Shown here one piece after another: positions 48,418 through 53,122 of a stretch of 64,000 nucleotides of DNA. The DNA lies in NCBI RefSeq assembly GCF_000060345.1, contig NC_008571.1, forward strand, positions 2,480,001 through 2,544,000. The letters are read 5' to 3'. The position numbers were made by a program, and so were the translations under genes. The DNA is from Christiangramia forsetii KT0803 (GTDB taxonomy: Bacteria > Bacteroidota > Bacteroidia > Flavobacteriales > Flavobacteriaceae). The notes beneath the pieces were generated by a model. It was not told the DNA's origin, searched no databases, and was given only the letters and a program-made list of their open reading frames with translations. How positions within the stretch are numbered: the stretch's first letter is position 1; each line of letters starts with the position of its first letter.

Positions 48418-48491
48418 ATTTAATTCAAGATTTAAAATTCAAGATTCAAAATTAATTTTGAATTCAGAATTCAGAGTTTTGAATTTATTGG

Positions 48492-49394: not shown

Positions 49395-50285
49395 TTAGGT
49401 TTTACTGTTCCGGGGATGTGCGTTCTGATGAATTTTACTCAATTCAGCAATACTATTATGAGTATACACTTGAGTCGCTGCAAGACTGGAGTGACCCAGC
49501 AATTCCTTTACGGCATTTAAATTAGCACCCTGGTTCAATAAATGAGTGGCAAATGAATGCCGCAGAATATGCGGACTCTTCTTTAGTTTACCAGACACCT
49601 CACTAAAATAATTATTTATAACTCTATAAACAAAACTTTCATAGATTTTATCTCCTTTGGAGGTTAAAAAAAGGAATTCAGAATCATGATTCACCCCTTC
49701 TTCTCGTCTTCGTTCAAGGTATTTCACGGCAGTATCAATTACAGATGAAATCAAGGGAATATACCTTTCTTTACTTCTCTTCCCTAAAACCTTCAACACC
49801 CCTCTCTCAAGATCAAGATCTGAAAGTTGGATGTTAATCAACTCTATCCTTCTGATTCCCGTGGAATAAAAAAGTTCTACAATTAACCTGCCCCTGATCC
49901 CTTCGTAAGTAGAATCGTCTATATTCTCCAGAACACTCACGATCTCTTCTTCAGAAAAGGGTATCTGAATTTTTTTAGGGGTTTTTAAGGCTTTATGTTT
50001 TGCAAGTGGAGAAAACTCTATCTGCTTAGTTTTCAATAGAAATCTATAATAAGCTTTTAAGGACGATATTTTCCTGTTAATAGTTCGGTTAGAAATTCCC
50101 GATTCAGAAAGTTCAACGATCCAGCTTCGTATTTGAGAATAACTTACCTCTAAAATCGTATCCTGCTCAAAAGTGTTCTGTATAAAGTCCTGAAATGCAT
50201 TAAGATCTGCTTTATACGCCGTAATTGTATGAAAAGCATATTTTTTTTCAAGCTGAAGATAATCGAGAAAAGCAGAAAAGGACAT
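49395..50285 (-). CDS. xerC: Tyrosine recombinase, XerC/XerD type
   Basis: 296 residues from the ATG at 50285 (MSFSAFLDYLQLEKKYAFHT); the longer frame runs into the rpsU terminator. The N-terminal SAM-like core-binding domain is followed by a catalytic domain with Arg in STGIRRIEL, HILRHSFATHLL (His-x-x-Arg), LGHSSL and the nucleophile Tyr in QVYTHNS. It resolves chromosome dimers at dif. Its position between rpsU and raiA, inside the translation gene block, fits a housekeeping Xer. Confidence 0.93.
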   Translation of the reverse strand: MSFSAFLDYLQLEKKYAFHTITAYKADLNAFQDFIQNTFEQDTILEVSYSQIRSWIVELSESGISNRTINRKISSLKAYYRFLLKTKQIEFSPLAKHKALKTPKKIQIPFSEEEIVSVLENIDDSTYEGIRGRLIVELFYSTGIRRIELINIQLSDLDLERGVLKVLGKRSKERYIPLISSVIDTAVKYLERRREEGVNHDSEFLFLTSKGDKIYESFVYRVINNYFSEVSGKLKKSPHILRHSFATHLLNQGANLNAVKELLGHSSLAATQVYTHNSIAELSKIHQNAHPRNSKT

Positions 50286-50337
50286 AAAAAAACTGTTGAT
50301 AAACAAAGTTACTAAACTTTGACCTACCAACAGTTTT
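50286..50337 (-). terminator. rpsU: rpsU terminator containing the xerC promoter
   Basis: The outer stem AAAACTGTTG/CAACAGTTTT (50328-50337 and 50289-50298) encloses an inner stem CAAAGTT/AACTTTG, with a run of T directly before the xerC ATG. The minus-strand TTG at 50330-50328 and TAACTTTG at 50311-50304 form a promoter inside the same hairpin. Confidence 0.7.
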
Positions 50338-51597: not shown

Positions 51598-51643
51598 CCC
51601 CGGGCGAAACCCAGGGTCTATCTTAAAAATATTTGATTAAAAA

Positions 51644-51955
51644 TTACCTCGCTGCTGGCTTATATTCTTTTTTATCGATCACCATTTTGGCGATAATAGA
51701 AAGGAATTTTTGCCAAAATTCTTACCTCGCTGCTGGCTTATATTCTTTTTTATCGATCACCATTTTGGCGATAATAGAAAGGAATTTTCGCCAAAACTCT
51801 TACTTAGCAGCTGGCTTATATTCCTTATTATCAATCACCATTTTGGCGATAATAGAAAGGAATTTTCGCCAAAATTCTTACCTAGCTGCCGGCTTATATT
51901 CTTTTTTATCGATCACCATTTTGGCGATAATAGAAAGGAATTTTTGCCAAAATTC
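51644..51955 (-). repeat. Four tandem 78-bp copies of the acyl-CoA dehydrogenase 3' end
   Basis: Units start at 51644, 51722, 51800 and 51878, with the native gene end at 51956 in the same phase. Read on the minus strand, each unit is 26 codons in frame with the gene. It has a new EFWQKFLS-like (or EFWRKFLS) half, then the native IIAKMVIDKKEYKPAAR end and a TAA stop. Each unit carries a TTTTGGC/GCCAAAA inverted repeat (TTTTGGCGA/TCGCCAAAA in the second and third). Unit 3 differs mostly at third codon positions. Confidence 0.95.
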
Positions 51956-53122
51956 TTACCTCGCTGCTGGCTTATATTCTTTTTTATCGATCACCATTTT
52001 AGCGATAATTTCTTTCAAAATTTCAGAAGTTCCACCTCCTATAGGGCCTAGTCTACTATCTCTTAATAATCTAGCCATAGGATAGTCTTCCATATATCCA
52101 TACCCCCCAAGCATCTGAAGACATTTATACATGACCTCATCTGCTATTTTAGTGGCTAGTAATTTAGACATGCTTGCCTCTTTTACTACATAATCACCAT
52201 CATTCAGCCTTTGAGCAGTCGCATAATTAAATTCTTTAATCACTTCAACTTCACTCACCATCTCTGCCAAAGAATGCCTTAAGACCTGGAACTTATCCAA
52301 AGTCTTTCCGAAAGCTTCACGTTCTTTCATATAACCCATAGCATAATCCAGAGCGAATTCAGATCTTGCATGAGCATTGATTCCCATGATCAATCGTTCC
52401 ATCGCAAAATGCTGCATGATATAATTAAAACCTTTTCCTTCTTCGCCTAAAAGATATTCTTCCGGAATTTCTACATTATCAAAAGCAAGTTCTGCGGTGT
52501 CTGAAGCTCTCCAACCTAACTTATTGAGTTTAGTCGCAGAGATACCTTTAACTTCTTTATCTACCAGGAACATACTCATTCCCTTATTACCTTTTTCAGG
52601 AGCCGTTTTAGCTGCTACCACATAAAAGTCTGCATAAACACCATTTGTAATAAAAGTCTTTGAACCGTTTATTATATATTTATCACCTTTCTTGACTGCC
52701 GTAGTTTTCATTCCAGCCACATCAGATCCTCCAAAAGGTTCAGAAATACAAAGACATCCTATCTTATCCCCATCAATCGCAGGTGTAAGATATTTTTCTT
52801 TTAGATCATGATCTGCTTCCACTTTTAAATGGGTCATCGCTAAATATGCATGTGCCCACATCGCTGCTGCAAACCCTCCGGAATTAACCTTCTGAAGCTC
52901 TTCAAGAAATATCACAGTGTAAAATAGGTCAAGGCCCATACCACCGTATTCTTCAGGCTGATTAAGTCCGAAATATCCCATTTCACCGAATTTTTTCCAT
53001 ATAAATCGTTCTATGGTTCCGGTTTCTTCCCATTTTTCTATATGAGGCACAACTTCTTTCTGCAAAAATTCCTGAAAACTTTTCCGGAATAAATCGTGTT
53101 CCTCTGTAAAATATCTACTCAT
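51956..53122 (-). CDS. Acyl-CoA dehydrogenase
   Basis: 388 residues. An N-terminal helical domain (FGLNQPEEYGGMGLD), the FAD-binding middle (LCISEPFGGSDVAGMKTTA, KTFITNG) and a C-terminal helical domain with a probable catalytic Glu345 in GGYGYMEDYPMAR and the final GGGTSEILKEIIA. It oxidises acyl-CoA to enoyl-CoA and passes electrons to ETF; the position of the Glu fits the short/medium-chain type. Its last ~18 codons have been copied four times downstream. Confidence 0.95.
   Translation of the reverse strand: MSRYFTEEHDLFRKSFQEFLQKEVVPHIEKWEETGTIERFIWKKFGEMGYFGLNQPEEYGGMGLDLFYTVIFLEELQKVNSGGFAAAMWAHAYLAMTHLKVEADHDLKEKYLTPAIDGDKIGCLCISEPFGGSDVAGMKTTAVKKGDKYIINGSKTFITNGVYADFYVVAAKTAPEKGNKGMSMFLVDKEVKGISATKLNKLGWRASDTAELAFDNVEIPEEYLLGEEGKGFNYIMQHFAMERLIMGINAHARSEFALDYAMGYMKEREAFGKTLDKFQVLRHSLAEMVSEVEVIKEFNYATAQRLNDGDYVVKEASMSKLLATKIADEVMYKCLQMLGGYGYMEDYPMARLLRDSRLGPIGGGTSEILKEIIAKMVIDKKEYKPAAR

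Follow-up and report, generated by a model that had tools for sequence, protein, structure and literature searches.

Tandem hairpin-linked copies of an acyl-CoA dehydrogenase gene end in Flavobacteriaceae and their possible exchange with the gene

In Borrelia (vlsE) and Neisseria (pilE/pilS), silent partial gene cassettes recombine with an expressed gene. Other elements, known as REP, PU or BIME, are palindromic hairpins that are found just after coding regions, sometimes in tandem, and that are dispersed. Integrons carry tandem cassettes with attC sites, which form a hairpin with a one-sided bulge and a variable terminal stem and have the core RYYYAAC/GTTRRRY.

Here, we describe an array of Christiangramia forsetii KT0803 that can be compared to each of these systems. 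The window (i.e., the whole stretch of 64,000 nucleotides that was analysed) covers positions 2480001-2544000 of a 3.80-Mb genome assembled as one contig. It contains an acyl-CoA dehydrogenase (ACAD) gene directly followed by tandem copies of its own end. Like the silent cassettes of vlsE and pilE/pilS, these are promoterless partial copies near an expressed gene (expression of the ACAD gene is assumed here), and comparison between species suggests that they may exchange with the gene. In contrast to these cassettes, the gene encodes a metabolic enzyme, the outcome is mostly synonymous, and the copies stand in tandem directly after the stop codon, each with a hairpin. The presence of tandem hairpins just behind a coding region recalls REP/PU/BIME elements, but the array follows one gene only and is not dispersed, as far as tested. 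The units also share a one-sided bulge, a variable terminal stem and a tandem arrangement with attC sites; unlike integron cassettes, however, they have no cassette ORF, and no core RYYYAAC was conserved, by eye, in an alignment of 28 unit rows. Finally, the inverted repeats and quasipalindromes produced by template switching likewise possess an arm that is the reverse complement of nearby sequence, with paired stems, according to PMC8794818. The ACAD arm differs from them in being joined to a directly repeated coding end and in its tandem repetition, and the ACAD hairpin in its conservation over the family, where the same deviation from a perfect palindrome recurs. Among the open-access matches listed, judged by title or by the start of the abstract, no such array was described.

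Architecture of the array and its hairpin

The ACAD gene is located on the minus strand at 51959-53122 (388 codons without the stop; Pfam Acyl-CoA_dh_N, Acyl-CoA_dh_M and Acyl-CoA_dh_1) and ends at 51956 when the stop codon is included. Its last 17 codons, IIAKMVIDKKEYKPAAR, and the TAA constitute the native tail (51956-52009, minus strand), which is the counterpart of the direct copies. TRF identified a tandem repeat at 51644-52009 (period 78, 4.7 copies, 93% matches, score 648); with the minus-strand reading of the gene and units, this bears out the four 78-bp units that an earlier note on this sequence had placed behind the stop. Every unit is composed of an inverted copy of the last ACAD codons and a direct copy of the last 18 codons, stop included. 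All four are on the minus strand. In unit 1 (51878-51955), the 24-nt inverted half occupies 51932-51955 and the 54-nt tail copy 51878-51931, with an inverted repeat at 51918-51931/51940-51953. It is followed by unit 2 (51800-51877; inverted repeat 51840-51853/51862-51875, 93%), unit 3 (51722-51799; 51763-51775/51784-51796) and the distal unit 4 (51644-51721; 51684-51697/51706-51719). The tail copies of units 3 and 4 each differ from the native tail at 1 base over 54. Unit 2, which the earlier note had numbered as the third, presents the variant tail VIDNKEYKPAAK, whose peptide also forms the native end in a congeneric species (L018). The six changes that had been named in this unit are accurate: five affect third positions (four synonymous, one K to N) and the other is AGG to AAG. 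All four units additionally share a seventh difference, a third-position change of GCT to GCC.

The units had also been described as in frame, with first halves reading EFWQKFLS or EFWRKFLS and a native tail ending in TAA. This holds, except that the tail is composed of 17 residues and the stop rather than 18 residues. The upstream half had been taken to be new; it is instead an inverted copy of ACAD's own tail codons, and EFWQKFLS has no special meaning as an in-frame peptide since it is this inverted copy read forward.

Past the array, positions 51600-51643 separate it from a convergent gene with a metallo-beta-lactamase fold and contain a terminator-like GC-rich inverted repeat (by eye). 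Beyond that gene are found the ribosomal protein S21 gene (rpsU) and, adjoining it about 1.3 kb past the array, a gene for a XerC-like tyrosine recombinase (49395-50330), which scores 293.7 with the XerC model, under the curated cut-off of 335.15. An antisense open frame of 150 codons (51633-52085, plus strand) spans the entire array, and its third positions coincide by eye with those of the sense tail codons. Two short tandem repeats are present in the window at 705-750 and 48422-48453 (23 and 14 bp). Elsewhere in the genome, TTTTGGAGAAGATTC occurs in pairs 282 bases apart (C1 74316, 74598, 76008 and 76290), hinting at another repeat region. The ACAD gene end itself is present only at this locus, in the gene and its four copies. 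The array is unlikely to result from an assembly artefact because the genome is a single contig and the same architecture is found in the assemblies of other species.

We compared the upstream halves of all arrays to the gene end. In the variant unit, ATTTTGGCGAAAATTCCTTTC agreed at 18 of 21 bases with the reverse-complemented native end. Across arrays, the alignment to the inverted gene end beat all 100 shuffles for 77 of the 96 distinct halves, which possess the reverse-complement arm from nearby sequence that marks template switching, and 91 of the 96 aligned better to the inverted than to the forward gene end. Pairing is possible between the inverted half and the IIAKM codons in the tail copy. 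After GCG, the arms read AAAAT in 95 of 111 cases where the inverted gene would read ATAAT (103 of 114). The hairpin is therefore not a mere fresh palindrome, and this common departure suggests that it arose once, long ago, instead of being newly formed many times. The 126 units were 59-98 nt long, with the exception of one interval of 294 nt.

Each unit can fold into a conserved hairpin built in two parts: an outer stem (TTTTNGCGA/TCGCNAAAA) and a variable inner stem, separated by a short A-rich bulge. Of 114 units, 111 contained its arm motif. In a set of 50 units, the third position of the Ala codon paired with its partner as G-C 17 times, as T-A 17 times and as A-T 6 times; the pairing of the outer stem is maintained while its bases change. 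The covariation score reached 0.163 against 0.097 for shuffled alignments, with none of 500 shuffles as high, for 28 units chosen from these 50 and a structure derived from the same sequences. The inner stem, whose sequence changes, folded better than shuffled sequences in 37 of 38 groups of related genomes. On the sense strand, G-U pairs outnumbered A-C pairs (54 vs 12 distinct group-and-pair cases).

The conserved arm motif, the shared AAAAT, the covariation, the paired inner stem and the excess of G-U pairs are all consistent with a structured RNA that would be selected in the ACAD 3' UTR for stability or 3'-end formation, with additional units merely repeating it and the tail copies being passengers; such a role is compatible with exchange. 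However, 46 of the 54 G-U cases lie at the end of the outer stem or touch a third codon position, and the remaining excess of 8 vs 6 means that the strand signal nearly vanishes. In addition, the folding energies of the sense and antisense strands presented no clear difference (p=0.07), and the arrays of eight loci yielded no Rfam match at E up to 1, the matches elsewhere being to tRNA, YrlA and plastid models. Template switching can also create and maintain hairpins whose stems stay paired without selection on RNA (PMC8794818). We consider that a selected RNA is possible as the main explanation, at clearly less than even odds.

The native codons ATTATCGC, which correspond to the hairpin's arm, were found in 32 of 35 genomes with an array and in 23 of 53 genomes without one, in a comparison where species are not independent. 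Such a skew would be expected if exchange carried the hairpin's constraint into the gene, or if arrays lasted only in genomes with suitable codons.

Distribution and gene specificity

Arrays of this kind, which the earlier note had suggested seeking in other genomes, are present behind the ACAD gene in several genera of Flavobacteriaceae. All 24 genomes that were searched within the genus contain the gene; one to four tail copies per genome were counted in 13 of them, and a fourteenth (L009) presents copies beside a run of N. Across all genera, at least one copy was detected in 35 of 88 loci, a few of these being decayed (13 duplicate records, two records with runs of N and one without the motif were left out). 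These array-bearing loci include Christiangramia, Salegentibacter, Gillisia, Tenacibaculum, Gelidibacter, Polaribacter and other Flavobacteriaceae. All comparisons in this work used mostly one genome per species, with relatedness handled by coarse grouping only. The 53 loci without a detected copy make for a patchy distribution, which argues against a selected RNA. Just past the ACAD stop, L007, L021 and L029 show apparent remnants or a decayed unit by eye; they were counted as array-free, and these remnants suggest that arrays have been lost. The contigs of L132, L189 and L190 start inside an array, and L009 and L037 are gapped by N there; in draft assemblies broken or gapped inside the array, the copies counted are a minimum.

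We then ran a unit covariance model on 299 genomes of the family, 53 of which were matched at E up to 1e-4, with the caveat that the native tail alone scores 50.7 bits. We inspected 30 of the matched loci. For the best 25, the unit was found directly after the ACAD stop in 24 (including the window), and the remaining locus is a contig starting inside an array; the last five were matches to native ends, with no unit. Two genera were searched separately at E up to 3e-7; 17 of 78 genomes were matched in one and 9 of 9 in the other. From the wider order, 296 genomes of unspecified family makeup yielded six matches at E up to 5e-7, all from Flavobacteriaceae.

The array also appears specific to one gene. 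Among 620 open-frame ends from 81 sequences (frames of at least 100 codons, whether real genes or not), 25 had an echo of their own end downstream and all 25 were ACAD; in 464 kb of the C. forsetii genome, this was the case for a single end of 494, again that of ACAD. A dispersed repeat was rejected: with up to two mismatches, the hairpin core occurred in 129 places of this genome and its backward control in 130. The unit model gave a strong match only at the array, the next match having an E of 0.44.

The constant position of the units in a single gene, the direct repeats of its 3' end and the XerC-like gene close to the window's array resemble the attachment site of an integrating element of the tyrosine-recombinase type that restores the 3' end of its target. 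We regard this explanation as highly improbable: the length of the units leaves no room for an integrase gene, and the usual neighbour rpsU is no more than 1.9 kb away in 30 of the 35 array loci. Two of the other five stop at a contig end. Of the remaining three (L023, L103 and L091), the downstream open frames of L023 (through its twin record L046) and L103 were listed, and none looked by eye like an integrase. Overall, the unit lengths, the spacing to rpsU and these downstream frames gave no sign that an element carrying genes had inserted. A permease-like gene (by eye) separates the array from the metallo-beta-lactamase-fold gene in Gramella sp. AN32 (L046:4484-6214).

Alternatively, the units might form a minimal cassette system devoid of genes. 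A host recombinase, for which the XerC-like enzyme beside rpsU is a candidate, would recognise the hairpin, perhaps as single-stranded DNA, and would move the hairpin, C-terminal codons and stop between strains, always into one point of one housekeeping gene. We view this as very unlikely; if true, the end of the enzyme would be an exchangeable part. A 28-bp dif consensus, with its XerC and XerD arms, had no match in the C. forsetii genome at up to three mismatches. Passages of PMC3025954, PMC3091885 and PMC9719478 did not give a dif sequence.

Coding-like divergence behind the stop codon

We built a set of 132 distinct gene ends, 76 of them with a copy, after leaving out 43 duplicates, 13 ends without the motif and two with N; 76 of 132 is not a frequency because many ends were found through the unit model. 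Counts were restricted to the codons after AKM, and 12 of the 126 units were dropped for having more than 14 differences, leaving 114 units. Relative to their own genes, these units presented 436 differences, of which 323 were at third positions (in this count and the following ones, units and species are not independent). The earlier note's proposal that the copies evolved like coding sequence is supported well outside the window. Codon by codon, units and their genes showed 278 synonymous and 98 non-synonymous differences, which is not the protein diversification expected from silent cassettes. Between units of the same array, 113 of 147 variable columns were third positions (28 arrays), and 107 of 140 without the window's genome.

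Simulations of a decaying copy produced a third-position fraction of 0.42 and 2.4-3.1 extra changes on the side of the copy, and simulations of a copy constrained like coding sequence produced 0.72-0.74 and about 0 extra changes. We observed a fraction of 0.74 and +0.54 extra changes (SE 0.36), the latter from the 54 pairs with a usable outgroup drawn from 75 array genomes. Most of the divergence between the tail of the gene and that of the copy thus appears to date from a time when both were coding. Decay after copying within the lineage does not give this pattern; former gene ends of this or another lineage, displaced behind a hairpin, would. Direct repeats and hairpins favour slippage, and it is conceivable that slippage simply copies the tail from the gene, the copies then decaying neutrally with no exchange back. 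Decayed copies do exist (the 12 of 126 units set aside above, and the novel residues described below), but the observed fraction of third positions and the lack of a clear rate excess on the copy's side render this scenario unlikely.

The Pfam match ends at residue 376 and the PDB sequence matches mostly end at 374-383 of 388, so that much of the sequence downstream of AKM seems to extend beyond the conserved fold. Judging from these alignments, swaps of the codons after AKM may be tolerable for the enzyme.

The earlier note had also considered that stop readthrough could extend the enzyme in 26-residue steps. Over the 126 units, lengths modulo 3 (0/1/2) were distributed as 40/46/40; the exact 26 codons of the window are thus incidental, and readthrough is unsupported. 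The third-position bias was 0.74, 0.75 and 0.72 by cumulative frame and, together with the even spread of unit lengths, this led us to reject readthrough in 26-codon steps. A restart at an internal ATG is disfavoured as well, since the 14 units without an ATG before the tail showed the same bias (56 of 77 differences at third positions). More broadly, the copies could be translated by either route, restart being at the ATG of the tail copy, and maintained because the peptide is selected. In 108 of 114 tail copies the frame stays open to a stop, and an ATG precedes the tail in 100 of 114 units, but the indifference of lengths and bias to the frame, the equal bias of units lacking an ATG and the many residue changes that look unconstrained leave this idea with very little credibility.

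Signs of exchange between gene end and array

The earlier note had raised the possibility that recombination swaps the C-terminus, and the comparison of relatives, on which the case depends, points to exchange between gene and array. The gene bodies of L126 and L131 are 3% apart, with a third-position divergence of 0.083. At third positions, their native tails have diverged by 0.50, with the peptide unchanged, and their distal copies by 0.00. The native tail of L131 resembles the distal copy of L126, while its last codon and the bases after the stop resemble the first copy of L126. It is possible that this tail is a mosaic, on few bases.

In four array-bearing Salegentibacter, native tails diverged by 0-0.23 at third positions as opposed to 0.31-0.40 for the gene bodies. 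Array-free pairs of Salegentibacter (body distance within 0.22) had tails more diverged than bodies in six of seven cases, the exception being L061/L065, whose tail was less diverged. For close pairs with arrays, native tails diverged by 0.299 and bodies by 0.171 on average (n=8), with one pair showing the opposite; array-free pairs presented a similar excess of tail over body at larger distances.

Residue differences between copies and genes were compared to those of relatives, with expectations based on a null of random one-step changes. Of 77 differences, 11 were cases where the copy, but not the gene, had the majority residue of the relatives (1.7 expected), 12 more had in the copy a residue of some relative (7.3 expected), and 54 were new among relatives (68.1 expected). 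For instance, the distal copy of L087 (Gillisia hiemivivida) encodes H where its gene encodes K, and seven relatives have H (4), K (2) or N (1). From these comparisons, some copies seem to preserve earlier ends of the gene and others to decay.

In the outgroup test of the 54 pairs, the native tail was nearer in 21, the distal copy in 16, and 17 were tied. This absence of direction indicates that import at the gene end is not general and that replacement has no single direction. A general displacement of the old native tail by import was therefore rejected; single cases fit it. The sequence after AKM was 0.882 identical to the gene end of its own genome and 0.714 on average to those of other genomes. 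The nearest native tail of another genome reached 0.875 on average, compared to 0.882 for the own one, and the own gene end was at least as near as any other for 70 of the 126 units. With 39 conserved bases, much of this similarity may arise by chance. Nearest native tails were listed for 13 genomes; among these, no foreign native was fewer than two differences from a copy, and no donor was identified.

These patterns lead us to propose, with a probability of about 0.5, that the gene end and the array form one recombining pool of C-terminal codons around a conserved hairpin, perhaps fed by other strains. An ancestral template switch would have made the inverted arm, and unequal recombination or slippage would alter the number of copies. 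The tails would mostly serve as a real gene end, here or in another strain, and would then be displaced behind the hairpin or brought back when the array contracts. The C-terminal codons of the enzyme would thereby be swapped between nearly equivalent versions. More tentatively, selection might act on the hairpin itself, whether as RNA of the 3' UTR or as a structure in DNA, which would account for the persistence of the array. Among the points that weigh against such a pool, the signs of exchange come from comparisons between species only, and the 54 of 77 residue differences not seen in relatives indicate that many copies do decay.

Out-of-frame sequence behind a stop codon is expected to lose its coding constraint, and here this constraint is largely kept across many genera. 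This serves as a warning that third-position bias alone is no proof that an open frame is translated. The arrays also mark a conserved hairpin with no Rfam match at the eight loci searched. Finally, they allow a simple test of how frequently a gene and its partial copies trade sequence, and of whether these copies come from other strains.
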